NCBI GenBank assembly: GCA_012845835.1
Contig: JABAKD010000010.1
Span: 13,052,973 to 13,116,972 of the forward strand
DNA length: 64,000 bases
Reading direction: 5' to 3'
From: Undaria pinnatifida
Taxonomy: Eukaryota; Sar; Phaeophyceae; Laminariales; Alariaceae
A program made the translations under genes and the position numbers. The number at the start of each line of letters is the position of its first letter. Within the stretch, counting starts at the first letter, position 1. Below, piece after piece: positions 5,666 through 60,897 of this stretch. Below the pieces are notes generated by a model that was not told where the DNA came from, searched no databases, and saw nothing but the letters and a program-made list of their open reading frames with translations.

Positions 5666-5784
5666 GACTTCGTCGCATGGTCCATGTGACACGGGATCTA
5701 TATGGGCCGCGGCCCGCCATCTCCTCAACCACAGCACGAGACTTTACTACGTATCTGATATGCATTCGCGGCAATAGTTCTTGT

Positions 5785-5925
5785 ACTAGTCGGGTATTAG
5801 TCCGTTTGACCACTTGCAAAAGGTGAACCAATTGCCTACCCAAACTAAGCCTTATAACACTCTTCCCCCCCACTGAAACGTGAAACGGCGGGATAGCAGG
5901 TCGGGCGGATATACGGGCGGACGCG
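5785..5925 (+). repeat. Family D tRNA-like repeat, partial
   Basis: GGGTATTAGTCCGTTTGACC through CTTACCCAAACTAAGCC-like sequence and GAAACGGCGGGATAGCAGGT are shared with the copies at 11.9, 13.9 and 23.9 kb. The tRNA-like part is missing. Confidence 0.75.
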
Positions 5926-8514: not shown

Positions 8515-8636
8515 AATAAATATATCCAAGCGGTCTCATTTCCTGGATATACCGGGGAGAATATCTTTCAAGTTCGACATGGGGAAACTCGTAAAGGTTA
8601 ACCACTTGCTTACCCAAACTAAGCCTTCTATAACCC
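8515..8636 (+). repeat. Family D repeat, rearranged fragment
   Basis: GGTCTCATTTCCTGGATATA, GGGGAGAATATCTTTCAAG and AAACTAAGCCTTCTATAAC are present in an order unlike the full copies, indicating internal deletion. The SINE at 8637 begins exactly here. Confidence 0.65.
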
Positions 8637-8950
8637 GGTCGCCCCGGTGGCGTATCAGGTTATCCTCGAGCCTGGTAAAGGTCAGTTTCGTGAGTTCGAG
8701 CCCCGCCGAGTGCATACTCGTATAAATTCGTTGGGACTTTTTCTTGTGGACAAATTGACTTGCGGAAAGCGCGAGAGCGTGAGCCAGCAACACTCGACGA
8801 ACAATCGACAAGCAGTGGGATTGCTGAACCCTATGCGCGATAAAAATTGAAGGCAAGAACCGGGGAGGAGAAGGGATGAAACCTGTGACCACGGCTTGTC
8901 CAGAAGCTGGAAAGTGATAGTGTGCAAAAAAAAGAAGAAAAAAAAAACGT
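8637..8950 (+). mobile_element. tRNA-derived SINE with poly(A) tail, copy 1
   Basis: The head has an A-box-like TGGCGTATCAGG (8648-8659) and a B-box-like AGTTCGAGCCC (about 8693-8703), at tRNA-like spacing. A body of about 220 bp follows, ending in an A-rich tail (AAAAAAAAGAAG then nine or more A) at 8926-8948. The inverted copy at 48.3 kb matches along the whole length, including the tail. No clear target duplication was seen. Confidence 0.75.
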
Positions 8951-11275: not shown

Positions 11276-11573
11276 CGGAGTCGTTCTACGGCAGTAGTCC
11301 TCCCAGCTTTTATTTAACGCAATCGCCGGTTTTGAAACCAGCTCCTATGATACCGGCGGTATCTCCTGAAACACGGTTAGAACGTTTTTTTGGGAATTAT
11401 GTGTATATCTACACAATTATTGTATTATTGCGGCGCCCAACTTCGGTGTCAGGGCAAGTTGATACACGCCTCCGGCAGGCGTTGCCCTGCCCGCACTTCC
11501 GCCTATTGTTTATGCGCCTTTTCCTAACAGCGCAGCACCTATCATAATGCCTACGTATCGTCTGGCCCAGATG

Positions 11574-12115
11574 TTATAAGGCTTAGTTTGGCTAAGCTAT
11601 TGGTTAACCAGTTGCAAGTGGTCAAAAGGACTAATACCCCACTAATTTCCTTAACAAATGGCGTCGTCGGCAGGACCATGGGTTTTTTGGGTCGTGGGTT
11701 CGAGCCCCACATCCACCATAATAAACTTTTTCAGATTTTCCCCATGGGTGAGCTTGAAAAATACTCTCCCTGGTATCCCCAGGAAATGAAACGGCTTGGA
11801 TGTTGACAGAGGTCCGCCGTATATCCGGCCGACCTGGTATCCCGCCGTTTCAGGGGGGGAGAGTGTTATAATGTTAAGGTATTAGTGGGGTATTAGTCCG
11901 TTTGACCACTTGCAAAAAGTTAACCAATAGCTTACCCAAACTAAGCCTTATAACACTCTCCCCCCCTGAAACGGCGGGATAGCAGGTCGGCCGGATATAC
12001 GGCGGACCTCTGTCAACATCCAAGCCGTTTCATTTCCTGGGTATACCGGGGAGAGTATTTTTCAAGTTCGCCATGGGAAAATCTGAAAAAGTTTATTATG
12101 GTGGATGTGGGGATC
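11574..12115. repeat. Two family D copies head to head, forming a large inverted repeat
   Basis: A minus-oriented copy (11574-11865) meets a plus-oriented copy (11868-12115). Sequence from about 11700 to 11865 is the near-perfect complement of about 11945 to 12112, with an 80-bp spacer. In the first copy the tRNA-like T-arm GGGTTCGAGCCCCAC reads on the + strand near 11697-11711. Confidence 0.8.
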
Positions 12116-12319
12116 GAGGTGTGGGACGGTCGACCCTCGAAACACTTTTTCTGACCACGAGGTGGCGGTCGATTTGAGGTGTGGGAAGGCCAACACTAAA
12201 ACACCGAGATCTTTTGCGAGGCTCGATCCGGTGTTTTAGTGTTGGCCTTCCCACACCTCAAATCGACCGCCACCTCGTGGTCAGAAAAAGTGTTTCGAGG
12301 GTCGACCGTCCCACACCTC
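12116..12319. repeat. Perfect 91-bp inverted repeat with 22-bp loop
   Basis: The left arm 12116-12206 starts GAGGTGTGGGACGGTCGACC. The right arm 12229-12319 is its exact complement and ends GGTCGACCGTCCCACACCTC. The loop is 12207-12228. Confidence 0.95.
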
Positions 12320-12436
12320 TCCACCCCTACACTACACCTAGGGTAAATGCTGCCTGTTTTGGTGCGATGAGCGACGGCGGTACGACGCCACCCACGACCC
12401 AAAAACCCATGGTCCTGCCGAAGACGCCACTTGTTG

Positions 12437-12571
12437 AGGTGGGGTATTAGTCCGTTTGACCACTTGCAAAAGGTTAACCAATAGCTTACCCAAACTAAGC
12501 CCATAAGGCTTAGTTTGGGTAAGCTATTGGTTAACCTTTTGCAAGTGGTCAAACGGACTAATACCCCACCT
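12437..12571. repeat. 65-bp inverted repeat with 5-bp loop, from family D ends
   Basis: Left arm 12437-12501, loop CATAA at 12502-12506, right arm 12507-12571. The arm is the family D end module containing GTTAACCAATAGCTTACCC. Confidence 0.95.
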
Positions 12572-12586
12572 TAACAAATGGCGTAG

Positions 12587-12654
12587 GGTTAACCAATAGC
12601 TTACCCAAACTAAGCCTTATATAAAGCTTAGTTTGGGTAAGCTATTGGTTAACC
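12587..12654. repeat. 29-bp inverted repeat with 10-bp loop, from family D ends
   Basis: Arms are 12587-12615 and 12626-12654, each the GGTTAACCAATAGCTTACCC module or its complement. The family D end continues to about 12712. Confidence 0.9.
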
Positions 12655-13007
12655 TTTTGCAAGTGGTCAAACGGACTAATACCCCACTAAAACCTTAACA
12701 CAGAGTCTAACATGATACCTGGTAGCTACGAGTACGAGTACGTTGTGGCGTTCTAGCGGTAACAATCAGGCTCAAATAACCAAGGGGTCAACTGCGCATG
12801 CCCGGCGAGCATATATTATGCGAACACACTTCTGCCAACGCTAAAAGTTGACTGTCTCTATTAATATATACGGTGCTACAACAGCTGGTATATCGTACAT
12901 ACATTGTATTAATATGATAATATGCGCAAACAACAAAACTAAGGGACGGCTTTGAAAACTACGACCAAGTGATGACCCTTTGACCAGAAAACAAGACCCC
13001 GTACACT

Positions 13008-13887: not shown

Positions 13888-14200
13888 TGTTGTTAAGGAA
13901 ATTAGTGAGGTATTAGCCCGTTTGACCGTCGGCAGAAGGTTAACCGATAGCTTACCCAAACTAAGCCTTATAACAGTCTTCCCCCCTGAAACGGCGGGAT
14001 AGCAGGTCGGCCGGATACACGGGTCCGCCTGTCAATATCCAAGCGGTTTCATCTCCTGGGTATACCCGGGAGAGTGTTTTAAGTTCGACACGCGGGGAAA
14101 GTCTGAAAAAGTTTATTATGTGGATGGTGGGATTTGAACCCACGACCCCCAAAAACCCATGGTCTGTCGACGACGCCATTTGTCAAGGTATTAGTGGGGG
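13888..14200 (+). repeat. Family D tRNA-like repeat, near full length
   Basis: It starts TTAAGGAAATTAGTGAGGTA and ends TCAAGGTATTAGTGGGG, so a short direct repeat sits at both ends. On the minus strand GGGTTCAAATCCCACC, near 14128-14143, is a clean tRNA T-arm/B-box. Confidence 0.8.
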
Positions 14201-14611: not shown

Positions 14612-14690
14612 CACATTATTAGTCCGTTTGACCACTTGCAAAAGGTTAACCAATAGCTTGAAAACTGAGCCTTATAACACTGTTCATCCC
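14612..14690 (+). repeat. Family D end fragment
   Basis: TATTAGTCCGTTTGACCACT through AACCAATAGCTTG and CCTTATAACACT. The rest of the element is absent. Confidence 0.75.
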
Positions 14691-19599: not shown

Positions 19600-20350
19600 C
19601 CCCCCCCTCTCCCCCCCTCCCCCCCCCCCCCCCCCCCCCTTCCCCCCCCCTCCCCCCCCTTTGTCCCCTTTGTCCCCTCCCCTTTCGTCCCCTCCTCCCC
19701 CTTTCGTTTTCACCTCCTTACCCAATAAACAGAAACATGCAACATGCGTCCACACACACAAGAAGTATTGCATAATGCTGCGACCCACTATACCCTCACC
19801 ACAGACTCACTTTACCCCCCCCCCCACCCACGTTAGGTTTAAAAGATGTTATCAAACTTCACATGCTACAAAAGGCTAATGTAGCCGTCCAATTGGTAGG
19901 AAATTTGGAACCAGTAGATAGACAAGAAATAAAGCACCGGATTTCCCCCCCCCCCCGCACCCCTCCCTCCCTTCCTAGCCGATTAAACATATCTATGCCC
20001 CTTCCCCCCCCCTCCCCCCCTTTTCCTCCCTTTGTCCCCTCCCCCTTCGTCCCCTCCTCTCCCTTTCGTTTTCACCTCCTTACCCAATAAACAGAAACAT
20101 GCAACATGCGTCCACACACACAAGAAGTATTGCATAATGCTGCGACCCACTATACCCTCACCACAGACTCACTTTACCCCCCCCCCCACCCACGTTAGGT
20201 TTAAAAGATGTTATCAAACTTCACATGCTACGAAAGGCTAACGTATCCGTCCAATTGGTAGGAAATTCGGAACCAGTAGATAGACAAGAAATAAAGCACC
20301 GGATTCCCCCCCCCCCGCACCCCTCCCTCCCTTCCTAGCCGATTAAACAT
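19600..20350. repeat. 362-bp tandem duplication
   Basis: CACCTCCTTACCCAATAAAC at 19711 recurs at 20073. The copies stay almost identical through GGTTTAAAAGATGTTATCAA and AGAAATAAAGCACCGGATT. Confidence 0.95.
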
Positions 20351-20889
20351 ATCTATGCCACAGGTTTAAACTCATTTTCTCCCCCCCCACTACCCCACCG
20401 CCCCCCTCCCTGGCCGCCGCAAAGAAACATGCCACAGTTTTAAACACATGAAAAGTATCATATAACACTGCAATATCTGTCGCGTTAAACCGCCCACTAC
20501 TTCGTCCACACCAAAGTATTCAATAAGCAGGCTAATCACATATACAAAACCTTGTAAATTTTCATTTTAAGGCTTCAACCCTAGCCTCGCGAAGTACTTC
20601 TATTCAACCCACACAGCGTAGCAAAATAATAAATACAGCCATAGTCAAACTATGAACAGTAACGGTATTATAAGTGTACTATGATACCTCTACAACCCAT
20701 AGTTGTCATGGTTGGTTGTTGCATGTTTATCTTCAGGGATAAATATGCATTTAACCATACTTAACAAAAGCCGCGAGGGGGAACGTTGAAATGACCAAAC
20801 GTCCCTCGCAACTTCGTTTTTAGCACCCTTGGAAAGCAATTTTTTCGACGTACATCAATACGTTTTGCAGATATGCACAACGGGCCACC
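20351..20889. other. No gene seen
   Basis: C-rich to 20410, then unremarkable A/T-rich sequence. Confidence 0.4.
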
Positions 20890-23882: not shown

Positions 23883-24262
23883 ACATGTTAAGGTATTAGT
23901 GGGGTATTAGTCCGTTTGACCACTTGCAAAGATTAACCAATAGCTTACCCAAACTAAGCCTTATAACACTCTCCCCCCCTGAAACGGCGGGATAGCAGGT
24001 CGGCCGGATATACGGGCGCACCTGCCAAATATCCAAGCCGTTTCATTTCCTGGGTATATCGGGGAGAGTATTTTTCAAGGTCGACATGGGGGGGAAAGTC
24101 TGAAAAAGTTTATTATGTGTATGGTGGGATTTGAACCCACGTCCCCAAAAAAATCCATGATCTGTCGACGGCGCCATTTTTTAAGGTATTAGTGGGGTAT
24201 TAGTCCGTTTGACCACTTGCAAAAGGTTAACCAATAGCTCACCCAAACTAAGCCTTGTAACA
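23883..24262 (+). repeat. Family D tRNA-like repeat, full copy plus a second end
   Basis: TTAAGGTATTAGTGGGGTAT and the following 80-bp end module occur at both 23887 and 24181, flanking the body and the minus-strand tRNA-like T-arm (GGGTTCAAATCCCACC near 24125-24140). Confidence 0.8.
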
Positions 24263-25007
24263 ATAATCAGAGGGTACGAGGGCACAACCCGCACGGCAGA
24301 ACACAGCAGACACTGCTCGCTGTGCGCTGTGCTTAGCAGCGGCAGGCACAACCCAACATCGATGCGGAGGCACCAAAGGGTAGCTGGGGAAGCGTGGCAC
24401 GTACGCGCAACCTAAGGGGTAGGTGCTAGTGAGCCAGCGCTCGAAGCCTCCACCGCCGCCCACGCCGCACGGCCACCGCCGCCGCTAATGCTGCTGCTGC
24501 TGCTGCTGTGCTGCTGTTTGTCTGATCGTGTTGTGCTGGGCCTGCCCCTGTCGGTGAGTCTAGGTGCTACCGCACCATGTATGTCTAAATTCAAAGTTTG
24601 ATGTCGCCTCCCCGCTCCCCGCCTGTGATATGGAAGCCGTGTACGCCTTTTTCTGCGATTCGTTGACCGCAAACACAACCAAAAGCATGCCGGAGTGAAT
24701 ATGACCTGTTTCTAGCATGATAGAAGATTTTTTAGTGATTTACTTTAACGCAAACACTCGAATACCTCCTCGTTTTAGTCATGCGTGCGCTTTTCACGTC
24801 CATATCCATGTACATACACGTACCTACCAAAATTCAATAAATAACTGCACTACAATAGTACCTGCCGCGGTACCATGGGGATTTGTTTTTACAGTAAATA
24901 TTATTTGTTTTGGGACAAAATGTTACGCCAATTTGGAAATAACGTTTTGCCAATTTTTTATTTATCAACCTCTCCAGGCATCAAGATCCGAAGAATAACT
25001 GGAGAGT
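24263..25007. other. No gene seen
   Basis: (GCT)7 lies near 24489-24510. An inexact GCACAACCCGCACGGCA / GGCAGGCACAACCC pair flanks 24290-24350. Confidence 0.4.
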
Positions 25008-27528: not shown

Positions 27529-27996
27529 ATGCCGTCTGTCCCCCAGTTTTTAGGAAACAACATCCCGATCTACGAAGAAGGCGCATTGATTTCTACTGTC
27601 ACAGCAGTTATGCAAGAATATTGCCGGAACTTTCCGCCAAGAATTTTCCTAGAAATTGGTGGTGGGCATACTTTTATAGTGATGGAACCAAAAAGTTTCC
27701 AATACATCGCAGGCATTATTCCTATCGGACCTGGAAGGCGTCATACACTCTCGATTTACTCTACAACCACCCCCTTATCATGTCATTGTAAAAGTTTATC
27801 GAAAAAATATCGAGAAACAACTGGGGGTGTTCCAAGTGACTTGCTCGTCTCAGGGAGGCGGAACGCAATCCTTTGCCAAATAGAGCCAGCAAAGCGACGT
27901 TTAATGCGCCGAGCGCCGCCACGGAGCTCGGCCGAGATCCAGATATGCTTCATCATGTACCCATGTCAGGCTAGCTTGCCCCGCGGCCGAAAATGA
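27529..27996 (+). CDS. Hypothetical ORF, 155 aa
   Basis: An uninterrupted ATG-to-stop frame has a globular-looking composition, including IFLEIGGGHTFIVMEPKSFQ and then a Gly-Pro-Gly-Arg loop. I do not recognise the family. It lies between a CTG/GCT-rich tract and a family A copy, so it may be a fragment of a mobile element or chance. Confidence 0.25.
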   Translation: MPSVPQFLGNNIPIYEEGALISTVTAVMQEYCRNFPPRIFLEIGGGHTFIVMEPKSFQYIAGIIPIGPGRRHTLSIYSTTTPLSCHCKSLSKKYRETTGGVPSDLLVSGRRNAILCQIEPAKRRLMRRAPPRSSAEIQICFIMYPCQASLPRGRK

Positions 27997-28723: not shown

Positions 28724-30543
28724 ATGGCGTCGTCGGGAGCTGCACACAGCAAGAGCGGTGGAGCCGACGCCGTCGCTAGCACAAAAGGAGGAGGTGTTGG
28801 TTCGAAAATCGAGGGAGTGGGGGTCCGGCCAATGGCCGCTCTTACCGACAAGTTCAAGTCCATGATGAGTGCGAACAGAAAACAAAAAGGGCAAGCTGCT
28901 GCTACTAGGCAACAAGGGGACACCATGATGGCTTCCAGCAAGGAGGGTAGAAGCGAACAAGAGGCCAGGTACGCGCGTGATGCATGCATGGGTGTCCAGA
29001 TAAGTGGCACGGAGTGGATCTACTGTTAAAAAGCTTTCTAGTGGCTCTTCGCTTGAAAACATATTATATAGACTACACCTTGCCAAAATAACACTGACTT
29101 TGAGAAAAGAAGGAAAGTAAAACTGCATCCCGTTTTGCAGTTACAGCCAACAGGGGTCACGGTTGTTACGGGATCCCCTCCCCTCCCCGCTGAGGCGTTA
29201 TGGGTTGTAACAAGGGTCCCTTCATTATACCTTGCCCATTGGCCTTGGTGGGGGTGAATCGGAACCCTTCGTTTAGATGGTATCCGGTAAGCAAGAATGC
29301 AAAACAAGAGATGCTATACTGTACATGTCCAAGCAGCACATCAGGTACCCTTGTGTGCGAGTGACCAGAGAACAGAGGCAGAGGCACTCTGCATAGCTGT
29401 GGTCGGTCGCTATTATCAATAGGACCACACTGTCTTGCACAATTACACAATACATTACAACTCGAATTTCTCGCTGCCAAAAAAAGGCGCGGATGTCGTA
29501 CTAGATGTTTCGACCCGGTTTCCTGACTTACAGGGCGTGTATAACCCAGCCTTTCTAAACATCTTACTGCAGCATTAGTGATCTCCCCATATATAGCGCT
29601 GGTATGTGCCAGCCAGAAGTACCGGCATTATAGCGGCAACCGGCACTACTCCGCGTACTGCCACTGCTGTTTGTTCCCACCTGTGTCAAGTGATTTCAAA
29701 GGCACTGTAGCGGGCAACCGGCACTACTCCACCGGTGCTATTATATATAGAGGAACCTCTGATGTGCCCCTGTCCGTTTGTTTGTTTTCTCTTCTGGATC
29801 GTCGCCGGAGAACCAGAAGAAAGAGACCAACCCGGAACGAGAACAAAGAGACCCCGTCATCATCATCACCATCAGCCCCTCCCCCGGCGACCCCCACTTC
29901 CTCCGCCGCTGCGGCCTCAACAACGAAGAAACGTAGCCGCCGTAGAAAGCCGAAGGACATCAACACCCCTCCAGCTGCGAGGAGCGCCAACATCCCTGCA
30001 ACTGCAAGCAGCGCCAACCCCCCTTCAACTGCAAGGAGTGCCAGAAGAAAGAGACCAACCCGGAACGAGAACAAGGAGACCCCGTCATCATCATCACCAT
30101 CAGCCCCTCCCCCAGCGACCCCCACTTCCTCCGCCGCTGCGGCCTCAACAACGAAGAAACGTAGCCGCCGTAGAAAGCCGAAGGACATCAGCACCCCTCC
30201 AACTGCGAGGAGCGCCAACACCCCTGCAACTGCAAGGAGCGCCAACCCCCCTTCAACTGCAAGGAGTGCCAAAGGCTCTTCAGCCGCAAAGAGCGCCACC
30301 CGCTCTTCAACCGCGAGGAGCGCCAGCAGCCCATCAATGGCGACGAAAGTGAACGACCCTGCCAGGCGCTTCCCTGAGTACAAGTTGGTGAGCAAAGACG
30401 CACCCCTTCGCAGCCGGGGCGGTTTGAGCAGGGGCGGGGGCTGGGGAACGACCGGGCCTAAGAATCAGTGGCTCTTGGATTACCTCGCAGAGCCTAGGCG
30501 ACCTGAGCTGGAGGTAATGGATGGTGTGACCAAAAAGCCCAGA

Positions 30544-40775: not shown

Positions 40776-41237
40776 CAACGTCTGCAGCTTAGCTACGTTG
40801 TCTCCGACGGAAGCCACCTCTGAGACTACCACAGGTACTTCGTGTTCAACGTATTATACTAGTACTCGTTCATTGTCTCATCAGCTACGCGTACATCCCT
40901 GCGACCTCACCATCACGCCCGTCAACTTGTCAACGATTACCTCTCCCGTCAGCTGCCCATCATCCACCACAGTGCCGCCGTCATCACCACGATCATCAAG
41001 GTATTAACGGCAAACGAAAATGGCACGTTGAGCAGATCAGGATGCGGAACCTTCTGCGGATCAAGACATGGATCAAACGTCTTCAACAGCACTACCATCA
41101 CTATCAACATCATCGTCAGCAAACCTGGCGGCAGCCACATCAGCCTCATTACTACTACATACAGCAAAGGCGGCTTCAGCACGGCTAGCGGCAGCCACTG
41201 CATCAGTTTCAGCAGCTCCGTTTGCTTCATCACAAGC

Positions 41238-41335
41238 GTAACCCCTTTAGAGCCCCCAAACCCCTCCCTATATTATTTCCAAGCAGTTTTGTCCCCCAAA
41301 ACGGGTTTCCAATCGTAACGGCGTTAAGCTTCATC
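41238..41335 (+). repeat. Family I fragment
   Basis: AACCCCTTTAGAGCCCCCAA through AAAACGGGTTTCCAATCG matches 54256-54345. Confidence 0.7.
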
Positions 41336-41369
41336 GGCTGCTTCAGTTGTAACATCTTCCATAAATACA

Positions 41370-43260
41370 ACAACTTCATGGTATACGTCTACTACGCGGA
41401 CGACAACTCCATCAAAAACAAGAAGCCGGACGCAATCCTCACCCCCTACGTCGACGGCCTGGTGCTTGCTGGAGGCGACAAGGCCGTGCTCAAGATATTA
41501 AAGGTGAAGCTAATTAGCCGCTTTGCTACAACGGACATGGGAAACATCTCGCTGATACTCGGCATGTAAGTCACCCGTAACCGCGAAATCGGGACACTCA
41601 CCATCTCTCAGACAGACTACATCAGGTCCGTGCTCGAAAAGTACGGAATGGGAGGGGGCCGTGAGCACGCCCGGAGCAGAAGAGGAACTGTCACTCGACC
41701 AGCCAGAGGCAGTTTTCTTGACGACTCAGAAAATCAACGGTATCAAGCAATCACAGACTTGTTAACGTGCCTGGCTCAAGTCTCACTACGACATTCTCGA
41801 TGGCGTCAACCAACTTGCGAGGACCATGCCAAAGCCATCAAAAACACACATGTGGGCGGCCAAGCACGCTCTTTTATTACCTTGCCGACACGATCAACTT
41901 CGACCTCACGCACAAGAAAGGGGGCTTACCCTAGCCGCGTTTTCGGACGCTCACTGGGGAAACAACTCAGACAACGGCAAGTCTATCATCGTATATTCAG
42001 ATGATGCCCAACGACTGAGTGATCTTTAAGGCCACGGGGAATCGCACAAGAATATTTGGAGTAGGAACTCATATGGAGGCATTTCGCGTACACGTATAAA
42101 ACCACTTGAAAGTAAACTATGGCATCTGCAAATAAGATCTTTGTTTCGATATTTTAGAAAAAATGCAGCAAAGATCCAATAGTGTACAGAGCTTTTCAGG
42201 TGCTTTTTAGCCATTTTTTGGACTCCATAATTAACCACCCCTTTTTCGAGTGTCCCTCTCCTTTTCTCCAAAGACCTACGCCAGAAAAAAAAAGAGAGCT
42301 ATATCATCCGCCTGGTGAGCAGCGAGTTTTTGGCGAAAATCGTTTTTTCATCGGTGACGTACCCATTGAGTTAGGCTCCCGCGCATGAATCAAAGTATTT
42401 CAGCGATTTCGGTAGCTTTTTTTTATGTTGCTGGCTTGCAAGTTCGAACTCACAAAAACATATCGTGAGTCGCTTCTGCCTGCCTACGACTACTGTCTGG
42501 CGCACCCAACGTCGTCATACACCCCATCAGGAGCCTCCCTCAATTTCGCGGGTCGTAGTTGCTTGTGGGGAGCTGTAACTGCCCGCTAGTGAAGTGCATA
42601 CGTTCTGTTGGGGGTCGTTTTTTGTCTCGTTTTGTGTACCTCAAATTTCGACCACTACAGTACCTCAAAGTCGAGGTGTGGACCTTTGAGCAAGAGGGAC
42701 ACCGATCTGAAGAGACTCACAGCATCTGTGGATTAAGCCCTTTTTTCGTAGGTTTCCGGGTCGTCTGTGTTTCTACGAACCAGCCGAAGCTCTATAAACG
42801 CAGCGTGTTAAGCTATCCATGTGTTTTACTGTTCCGGTAAAAAATCTAGATATTAGAGTTACCGAAAAACCGGGGACCAGGGGATGCTTCGCCCCCCCCG
42901 TGGCCTTAAGGTGGGTCTTCAAGCAATCGCGGCCCAGTCAACAATGGAAGCAGAACTTGTCGCAGCAGCACTAGCGATGAAATAGGCAATCTATTGCGCT
43001 AACATGATGAAAGAGCTCGGATTCGAAAATGCACTCAAGCACGTTCTCCTGAACATCGACAACACGTCAGCTCTGCATGTGCCGGGGACCACCCACTCAG
43101 TTTTTTTTGCGTGCAAAGCACGTGTGGCTCTACGACATTTTACGTCCGGGAAATCGTGCAGGAACGCAAGGTTATTATCCACTACGTGCCGACCGAGGAC
43201 AACATCTCTCGGCTCGACCCCCATAGTCTTACCTGCCTACCCATAGTACAGGCCAATCAG
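41370..43260 (+). pseudogene. Ty1/copia retrotransposon remnant: RT end and RNase H
   Basis: The C-terminal part of a copia reverse transcriptase starts near 41380. ILTPYVDGLVLAGG sits where active elements have Y-V-D-D, so the second catalytic Asp is Gly. TTDMGNISLILGM then meets a stop at 41567, followed by readable IGTLTISQTDYIRSVLEKYG. After a frameshift, YLADTINFDLTHKKGG and AFSDAHWGNNSDNGKS (RNase H) follow. The match resumes at about 42911 with LQAIAAQSTMEAELVAAALA, an in-frame stop, ANMMKELGF, LLNIDNTSALHV and, in another frame, REIVQERKVIIHYVPTEDN. About 0.9 kb of unrelated DNA interrupts RNase H. The element is dead. Confidence 0.85.
42015..42900. other. Insertion interrupting copia RNase H
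   Basis: The copia frame is lost after the G-K-S segment near 41990-42010 and resumes near 42905, with about 0.9 kb of unrelated sequence between. No terminal inverted repeat or ORF of note was seen inside. It may be a nested element or replacement DNA. Confidence 0.5.
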
Positions 43261-43533
43261 AAGGCTCCATTTAGGCCTTTTTTTTTCTACACAGTCCCTC
43301 CCCATAGTACACCATAGTACAGGCCAATCAGCGAGCGACACGGGGGTTGTGCTCGGCGCAACTCTGGTAAACCCCCATGTCTTACCTGCCTACCCATAGT
43401 ACAGGCCAATCAGAAGGCTACATTTAGGCCTTTTTTTTTCTACACAGTCCCTCCCCATAGTACACCATAGTACAGGCCAATCAGCGAGCGACACGGGGGT
43501 TGTGCTCGGCGCAACTCTGGTAGTACAAGTATT
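43228..43533. repeat. 153-bp tandem duplication after the copia RNase H
   Basis: CTTACCTGCCTACCCATAGT at 43228 recurs at 43381 and the copies are almost identical through GCGCAACTCTGGTA. Each copy includes TACAGGCCAATCAG twice. It begins within the decayed C-terminal coding part of the copia element. Confidence 0.9.
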
Positions 43534-59165: not shown

Positions 59166-60359
59166 GTTTGTGCGTACCCTACAGAACACGACCTTGCAAT
59201 TTTCCGTCTTCGGGCTTTACAACGATAGATACCTGAAAATCACGACACTAAACGTATTCACGTGGCGGCATCGACGAGGAGATCATATCGGTGAAGCGAG
59301 TTTTGGCGTGGGAGCTGTGGTTCGCAGGATGTGGGAAATGCTCATATCACTTGGACAGGCGTTGTTGCATGGGGATATTCGCGGTGTATAGTACAATCCA
59401 TACCTGGTACCAGGCATACTACTATAGTCTTTCTTCACGCCATAAATCGATCAGGACGTCGGATAACTCGACGCTATGATAGTCCAAGGAGAAGGACGTC
59501 TGCAAAATGCCTGTTTGTTTTGTTCTGCGAGCTGTAAAAGGCCGCAATAAAAAATGCCAACGAAAGTGCTATAACAATATGTTGAGCTCTTGGAAACCAT
59601 CCAGGGGAACAAAATCGTTTCACGGGAATCAAGAAAGCGCGCTGTTTTTTTTGTTTTTTTTTTCTTGTATGTGGAGGATGACGCTTGTCAGAGTTATCTG
59701 TCATGACAAGAAAAGAAAAAAAGTAGATGATGACCTTTTTTGTTTAAAAAAAAAAACTCATGACATCATTCGGTGACAACGTTGCGAAAGCATTACCAAG
59801 AAAATGATAAAAAAAGCTATCTACGGCGCAATGCCGACAAAATAATCGGAAAAGACCCACGCATTCGCTTGTGTTGTCTTCTTGCTATGATGGACAACCC
59901 TGCCCAATTTTCGTTCTCCAGTTCCTAAAAAACCAGCGCGCTTTCTTGCGGAGATCGATTTGACTGGATGTCGCTCGAAGCAGCTCGTAACAGCGACAAA
60001 ACATGCGAGCCGCCCCTCTACAGTGCGGTAGGTGTCGCAGTTTTTGGGGCGAACGGTTTCTGACCTTCTGATCATGTTTCGGTTGAGATGCTCAGGTAGG
60101 GAAACTATCAGATATCGTGATGAAGCTTACGAACATGTCTGTTTCAGGGCTATGGTGGCGCATCGAAATCTTGGTGGTCGGGTTGCGCGAGAACGAATGT
60201 CTTCGAGATCGTCGTGCTTCGGGCGAGATTTTTTGTGCTTATCTCCGGAGCTCAGAAATTTCTTAGAATCTGCTACACCTCTAGCGTGGGATGACTCGCA
60301 CACAAAAACTTCCCCCTACCCCTCCCTCCCCCTTCCCCTTCCCCCCCCCCCACCCCCAG
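59166..60359. other. Probable upstream intron and flank of the WD40 gene
   Basis: No exon could be defined. The last 50 bp before 60360 are a strong pyrimidine tract. Confidence 0.4.
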
Positions 60360-60897
60360 TCGGGACACACCGCCGCAGTATACGTGGCGAAGTTCTCCCC
60401 TCGCGATAGCCTAGTAGCGTCAGCCGGATTCGATCGCACCCTTCGATTATGGGAAGGTGCTTACCCGTACAGCCAGGTAGCGTGTCTGGAGGGGCATCGT
60501 CAGCTCATCAGCGACCTGTGCTGGGCCCCTGATGGGAGGTCGCTTATCAGCGCTTCGTTCGACCAGGTGGGGGGAGGAGGGGGGAGGGGGGGGGAGGAGG
60601 GAGGGAGAGACTTGGGTGGAGGGGGAGGGCGAGGGGGTGGTGGGCGGAGGGGAGGGGGGGGGGAGGACGCGCCTTGCGCTTGGCGGTGATTGTCTTGTCT
60701 CGCCGCTCCTCTCCCATCTTGACAGTACGCATCTTACCGGGGCACAGCATTGTGACCCCCCCCTTGTTGGCACAAACGCGCTACATTGAATTGCCGACGT
60801 AACAACCAGAAGAAACGGAGAGGGCGTCGGTCGCGAAGATTTAGCTGGGGTGCGCGTGCCCGGACCGGGGCTCGTATTAAAGAAAAATCGCGTTACC

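Follow-up and report, generated by a model that had tools for sequence, protein, structure and literature searches.

The window analysed here is a 64,000-nucleotide stretch (C2:13052973-13116972) of a kelp genome of 511,146,479 bases in 68 contigs, which was also searched as a whole. A nest of inverted repeats occupies 11568-12704 of the window, and re-examination of the sequence confirmed all four inverted structures listed in the sequence-only reading. Two hairpins have long perfect arms: 12116-12206 is identical to the inverse of 12229-12319 at 91/91 positions, and 12437-12501 to that of 12507-12571 at 65/65, a match that reaches 78 nt at 97% identity. A smaller hairpin joins 12587-12615 to 12626-12654 (29/29), and a long inverted pair, 11700-11871 with 11948-12117, extends over approximately 172 nt, its gapped alignment containing 6 mismatches and 2 gaps. 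The loops of the 91-, 65- and 29-bp hairpins measure 22, 5 and 10 nt, respectively. Such a cluster is far beyond chance. The longest exact inverted repeat with arms up to 1.2 kb apart was 91 in the window and 12-15 in 20 dinucleotide shuffles, in a test whose script registers repeats of 12 and longer; with 11.5-12.8 kb removed from the window, the longest was 22. Outside the window, a scan of 22 genomic stretches (about 220 kb in total, about 5.5 kb of it N) with a low-complexity filter and a distance limit of 1.3 kb gave exact inverted repeats no longer than 47.

The repeat unit from which part of the nest is built is about 380 bp long, with direct terminal repeats of about 84 bp and the ends TGTTA..TAACA. 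It consists of the 84-bp terminal repeat (TGTTATAAGG...TTAACA), two bases, TGGCGTCGTCG..., the T-arm-like GTGGGTTCRAATCCCAC and the body, followed in the 3' part by a G-rich polypurine tract and a second terminal repeat in the same direction. Because it combines direct long terminal repeats (LTRs), a primer site, a polypurine tract and 4-bp target duplications, the unit is, judged by its sequence, a TRIM, a miniature non-autonomous LTR retrotransposon. A complete, un-nested copy (X, Table 1) served as a yardstick, and BLAST of the region against the window indicated related copies at 5783-5922, 8524-8645, 13890-14199 and 14617-14681. In 20 stretches beside the window (200 kb) there were four more near-full copies (L005, L013 and two in L014), as well as fragments in L004 and L005; none was found in two distant stretches, L021 (half N) and L022. 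The primer site and the polypurine tract were present in all seven aligned copies and both LTRs in five of the seven, one of these five having no 5' end; L014b has no 5' end. Direct terminal repeats with TG..CA ends, some of them mutated, were seen in X, L013, L014a, L005a and L045, the LTR pair of the last being 98.8% identical. Perfect 4-bp target duplications flank three of the six testable insertions, namely the window composite (CAGA), L014a (TCGG) and L045 (AACG, within a CAA-type simple repeat), while that of L005a agrees at 3/4 positions (CAAG/TAAG) and X and L013 have none. At this size the TRIM is too short for gag or pol; two open reading frames, of 89 and 118 aa, overlap the nest.

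The unit had earlier been described as a tRNA-like repeat. This holds in so far as it carries a T-arm-like motif and a tRNA-Ser primer site, but not in the sense of a gene: no tRNA gene was found in the nest by ARAGORN or by Rfam at the gathering threshold, and the possibility that the unit is a tRNA gene or a SINE was discarded for want of a tRNA model match at the gathering score. The T-arm/B-box motif is internal in the TRIM rather than in the LTR, and it matches part of the tmRNA model weakly, below the gathering score. Phage, plasmid and viral sequence collections gave no match to the region.

Table 1. Features of the hairpin nest and of the un-nested reference copy X (window positions)
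Feature	Position	Strand	Basis
Left target-site duplication CAGA of the outer element	11568-11571	.	sequence
Element 1 5' LTR (A), TGTTATAAGG...CTTAACA	11572-11656	+	aligned with 12 other full or partial LTR copies of the window
Element 1 internal region, with T-arm/B-box-like GTGGGTTCGAGCCCCAC	11657-11863	+	alignment
Element 1 primer binding site TGGCGTCGTCGGCAGGAC	11659-11676	+	complementarity to tRNA-Ser + CCA
Polypurine tract AGGGGGGGAGAG, abutting the 3' LTR of element 1	11852-11863	+	sequence
First 8 nt of element 1 3' LTR (TGTTATAA), broken by element 2	11864-11871	+	
Element 2 LTR B, antisense, starting at the exact TG end	11872-11955	-	
Element 2 internal region, first part; pairs with element 1 as the long inverted pair	11956-12115	-	
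Captured 121-bp fragment of the abundant repeat R; left arm and loop of the 91-bp hairpin	12116-12236	+	121/121 to L023 301-421
Right arm: fold-back copy of the R fragment	12229-12319	-	missing from 12/12 fetched R copies
Patch Q	12324-12363	-	36/40 identical to a stretch inside TRIM L045
Element 2 internal region, resumed; primer-site complement at 12412-12429, one mismatch	12390-12431	-	
Element 2 LTR C, without 8 nt at the right end and 6 bp near the left end	12432-12501	-	
D: C in inverted form, likewise without the 6 bp and extending 8 nt past the LTR; 65-bp hairpin with C	12507-12584	+	
E: part of C copied in direct orientation; 29-bp hairpin with F	12587-12620	-	
F: remainder of element 1 3' LTR, opening with the insertion-site ATAA	12621-12700	+	
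Right target-site duplication CAGA	12701-12704	.	sequence
X: complete, un-nested TRIM copy	23884-24264	-	BLAST against the window

The long inverted pair results from the position of a second TRIM copy (element 2), which lies antisense 8 nt inside the 3' LTR of the first (element 1). The primer site of element 1, 2 nt past its LTR, is complementary to tRNA-Ser + CCA at 18/18 positions; an antisense-tRNA origin of the internal region beyond this site was considered and rejected, as the alignment ends at 18 nt. The right end of element 2 lacks its last 4-8 nt, and recognising ATAA as the duplication of this element therefore means allowing for a small deletion. Between the host LTRs (A and F) there are differences at 9/82 sites and between the nested LTRs (B and C) at 2/70, which is the order that nesting demands but not a significant difference (Fisher p = 0.065). 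The two internal regions differ from each other at 6/162 sites and each from copies X and Y by 6-10%; being closer to one another than to X and Y, they would also be compatible with a single composite insertion.

The 91-bp hairpin is, by sequence comparison, foreign to the TRIM: 121 bp of R interrupt element 2, with their inverted duplicate immediately behind. A genome search with 12110-12400 yielded 1146 candidates, 40 of which were scored, and among these 40 only the window itself matches as a palindrome. The remaining 39 match 12116-12236 at 98-100%, that is, the left arm and loop only, with no fold-back (one of the matches starts from 12111 and two from 12117). The 12 R copies that were fetched (L023-L034) are all non-palindromic and colinear over 720 bp, with other sequence at the point where the window folds back, and a diverged relative in L007 likewise runs on without a fold-back. 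In the window the fragment turns at a natural stem, CACCG..CGGTG; its left junction, TCGA, is present in the TRIM and in one of the 12 R copies (L031). R is unclassified, because none of 8 open reading frames from 6 kb around one R copy had a Pfam match reaching the cut-off. A filler at 12364-12389, between Q and the resumed interior of element 2, falls outside the explanation given below. Both foreign pieces recur elsewhere in a young TRIM, L045:72-662 (C20:5445321-5445911), whose interior holds a piece of R (63/64) and patch Q (36/40) as well as a tRNA-Ser 3' half with CCA directly before the LTR; a further LTR end and a further primer site are present in this copy.

The 65- and 29-bp hairpins are formed by LTR copies. 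D is 97% identical to C over 78 nt, and its 8 nt beyond the LTR are internal sequence; C, D and E follow one another in direct, inverted and direct order, placed between LTRs already inverted by the nesting. The perfect arms of the nest look like the outcome of fold-back copying, by either reverse transcriptase or DNA repair. The earlier proposal that every hairpin was made from one tRNA-like repeat was not borne out, as two of them (65 and 29 bp) consist of LTRs and the largest perfect one (91 bp) of an unrelated repeat. Three sources account for the inverted structures: TRIMs nested in antisense, a piece captured from an unrelated abundant repeat, and LTR copies in direct-inverted-direct order.

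We consider it probable that the nest is a product of LTR retrotransposition, combining antisense nested TRIMs, a fold-back of R and a double template switch at the LTRs. A TRIM with a tRNA-Ser primer site sits between the CAGA duplications, and element 2 would be a later insertion into it. A DNA strand ending in the stem CACCG..CGGTG may have folded back and primed its own copying of the R fragment, the likeliest setting being reverse transcription in which the template switched between packaged RNAs; the C-D-E arrangement would stem from a double template switch at the inverted LTRs. The recurrence of R together with Q in two TRIM copies, the nest and L045, argues for template switching before insertion, and for this reason self-primed fold-back in reverse transcription is preferred as the source of the 91-bp hairpin. 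For the fold-backs of the window, no step tells reverse transcriptase apart from DNA repair, as element 2 holds no tRNA copy.

A rather unlikely explanation, though the likeliest of the alternatives, accepts the nesting as described and has the perfect hairpins arise later by DNA repair or replication, as a fold-back inversion or an inverted triplication: the inverted LTRs would have broken, a hairpin would have primed synthesis and the template would have switched, with R captured at TCGA microhomology. The shared TCGA at the left junction agrees with it, and so do two precedents, here taken from the available parts of the reports: inverted triplications, which resemble the direct-inverted-direct order of C-D-E (PMC4689423), and fold-back inversions in yeast from hairpin-forming sequences, including short stems near a break (PMC7467729). 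Repair does not readily explain why the R fold-back ends at the limit of the fragment itself, with no run-on into the TRIM, and the presence of both R and Q in L045 points to events that preceded insertion. The sequence-only reading had offered three explanations for the hairpins: recent origin, protection or artefact. The arms, being 100% identical, are probably young or homogenised. An assembly or sequencing artefact, such as a fold-back chimera or misjoined repeats, is very unlikely: the nest is bounded by intact biological features, namely a target duplication, LTR ends and a primer site, and the window contains no N, the nearest in the fetched flanks being 500 N in L003, about 29 kb to the left of the window start; the unequal loops also speak against it. 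Chimeras caused by missing adapters invert whole reads and not 91-bp inserts. The stacking of multiple copies of a common repeat at the nest would nevertheless favour misassembly, as would the reads, provided that the sequence belongs to the published Undaria assembly, which was made from PacBio Sequel reads whose N50 is 11.5 kb (PMC7058681, as given in the portion consulted).

An inverted-repeat DNA transposon, or a MITE/foldback element, would share the long inverted arms and short loops of the nest; this identity was rejected and is hardly credible, since the terminal repeats of simple TRIM copies are direct rather than inverted and the 91-bp palindrome is unique among the 40 scored of the 1146 candidate matches. 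It is also very improbable that the nest is a small-RNA or hairpin-RNA locus selected for silencing of the TRIM family. A hypothetical transcript of 11572-12702, which might yield the long double-stranded RNA suggested in the sequence-only reading, folds at -862 kcal/mol, Ectocarpus small RNAs are associated with intact transposable elements according to the accessible part of PMC12477816, and miRNA-precursor models match the nest, at scores below gathering that are usual for long hairpins; the origin of the structure can, however, be explained without selection. The nest has no likely function of its own. If it is transcribed, one may speculate that it could feed small-RNA silencing of the TRIM family.

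A pattern search of the genome identified the primer tRNA with tRNA-Ser(AGA) genes. The first tRNA-Ser 3'-end pattern was abandoned, as its single match, L035:110-180 (C27:14408509-14408579), was no tRNA but a diverged TRIM; here the region of the primer site pairs with its complement over about 21 bp, another quasi-palindromic hairpin. The pattern GTTCRANNCNNNNCGACGACG is matched at 85 places in the genome. From these, 7 loci were picked by hand and 40 taken in listing order, most places with a T-stem other than CCTGCC being passed over among the latter, which gave 47 loci with 48 sites; L035, a TRIM copy without CCA, was left out of the 48-site counts. Seven of the 48 sites (L037, L060, L067-L071) are tRNA-Ser genes: the tRNA is complete, CCA is not encoded, and T-rich sequence comes next. 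ARAGORN typed six of the seven as tRNA-Ser(AGA) and left L068 untyped, and L037 is an Rfam tRNA at the gathering score. Five tRNA-Ser-type genes (L037 and L067-L070, L068 being degenerate) are clustered at C24:6754056-6759621.

At 38 of the 48 sites (loci within L038-L043 and L050-L089; not all independent, as L040 is counted twice and L080 and L081 are neighbours) the tRNA-Ser end is followed by an encoded CCA. Since CCA is added post-transcriptionally to most eukaryotic tRNAs, these sites look like copies of mature tRNAs; the four near-full copies at which ARAGORN calls a tRNA (L038, L041, L059 and L066) may, however, be genes. In eight of the 38 (L039, L050, L057, L066, L077, L086, L088 and L089) the next 60 bases align with the TRIM LTR at a score of at least 51, and a ninth such site, L042, was seen with longer flanks (L047). 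The other 29 continue into different sequences, several of them recurring between sites, which look like the ends of other, putative LTR families. Three of the 48 sites are neither gene nor CCA copy, and one of these, L079, runs into the TRIM LTR.

Position 34 is A in six of the seven genes, whereas among the 23 CCA copies that cover it G was found in 16, C in 6 and A in 1 (A versus not A, Fisher p = 8e-5); 10 of the 16 copies with G are partial, their alignment beginning at position 21 or later. The G would fit inosine read as G, with a tRNA-Ser(GGA) gene as another possible source, and the C fits another isoacceptor. The 5' limits of the copies, taken as local-alignment starts, lie at positions 24-38 in 25/38 CCA copies (p = 1e-7 in a binomial test that assumes uniform spacing); 10/38 begin at 34-38 (p = 8e-4), and five copies reach position 1 or 2; the search pattern is blind to copies ending at base 58. 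At L044:68-864 (C1:447767-448563) there is a palindrome with arms identical at 394/397 positions, centred on the anticodon loop of tRNA-Ser. It reads arm, primer site, antisense tRNA half, sense tRNA half, CCA, arm, and the tRNA halves are flanked by sequence shared with L048, a presumed LTR. The fold-backs of the window are perhaps the same kind of copying error as these apparently reverse-copied tRNAs. We put forward as a tentative proposal, for which the chances seem to us somewhat short of even, that tRNA-Ser-primed LTR elements, the TRIM family at least, repeatedly overran the 18-nt plus-strand stop and went on to copy the mature, CCA-bearing and inosine-edited tRNA up to its anticodon arm, where a fold-back or a switch of template followed. 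Perfect palindromes and patchwork elements would result, the window nest and L044 being two such outcomes, and the genome would keep a standing record of reverse-transcription errors.

Such over-extension has a counterpart in HIV-1, for which the available section of a review (PMC13191261) distinguishes the same plus-strand classes, one reaching the 5' end of the tRNA and the other stopping at base 37, which is bulky. The over-extended plus-strand strong-stop DNA, like the kelp copies, passes the 18-nt primer site into the tRNA; that report concerns HIV-1 replication, whereas the kelp provides genomic copies only, among them L044 with its palindrome around the anticodon. The kelp TRIM itself is most readily set beside FRetro129, a TRIM/SMART element that, as described in the part of PMC3281118 consulted, is also tiny, with 85-bp LTRs, TGT..ACA ends, a primer site, a polypurine tract and short target duplications, and that occurs in sorghum as one FRetro129-type copy nested inside another. 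FRetro129 measures 292 bp and makes 5-bp duplications, as compared to about 380 bp, 4-bp duplications and a tRNA-Ser primer in the kelp, and that part of the report describes no palindrome in the sorghum nest. Helenus/TRIMp3 (PMC10886601, in part) shares with the kelp TRIM a tRNA-like sequence, a box-B-like GGTTC and duplications of 4-5 bp; its tRNA-like part is in the LTR, while that of the kelp is internal, beside the primer site. The tRNA-derived Pol III promoter in the LTR that defines TRIMp3 is absent from the kelp element, which has no tRNA at the gathering score, and the text of PMC10886601 uses none of the terms stramenopile, brown alga or Ectocarpus. Insertion into an older copy of the same family is known for nested LTR retrotransposons (PMC6911290); the portion of that study consulted finds LTRs not to be common targets, whereas the kelp insertion is in an LTR, antisense and 8 nt from its start. 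TRIM/LARD elements, also non-autonomous LTR elements of a brown alga, are mentioned for Ectocarpus in the accessible part of PMC3145265, a likeness of description. No account of the kelp TRIM family or of algal tRNA-CCA-LTR copies was found in literature that covered few subscription journals, which makes this weak evidence of novelty.

What had appeared as a suspicious cluster of hairpins can now be read as a history of two mini-retrotransposon copies and fold-back copying. The genome-wide lead of the tRNA copies is more valuable than the history of the nest: should the copies, with their CCA and inosine-like base 34, be genuine, the stops and errors of reverse transcription could be counted from sequence alone in an unstudied lineage, and natural palindromes would have a source in reverse transcription.

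Several other features of the window were recorded. ARAGORN calls a tRNA with a stop anticodon at 27843-27936, which has no Rfam support at the gathering score and is probably spurious, and a weak RVT_2 (reverse transcriptase) match, under the curated cut-off, lies at 41222-41569. The clearest host gene in a search of six frames is represented by one or more WD40-repeat exons at 60291-60689 (Pfam WD40, E = 6.9e-15). Three recent tandem duplications were also seen, at 19636-20359 (about 364 bp, 96.7% identical), 29807-30271 (about 237 bp, 96.6%) and 43217-43522 (about 153 bp, 98.7%).
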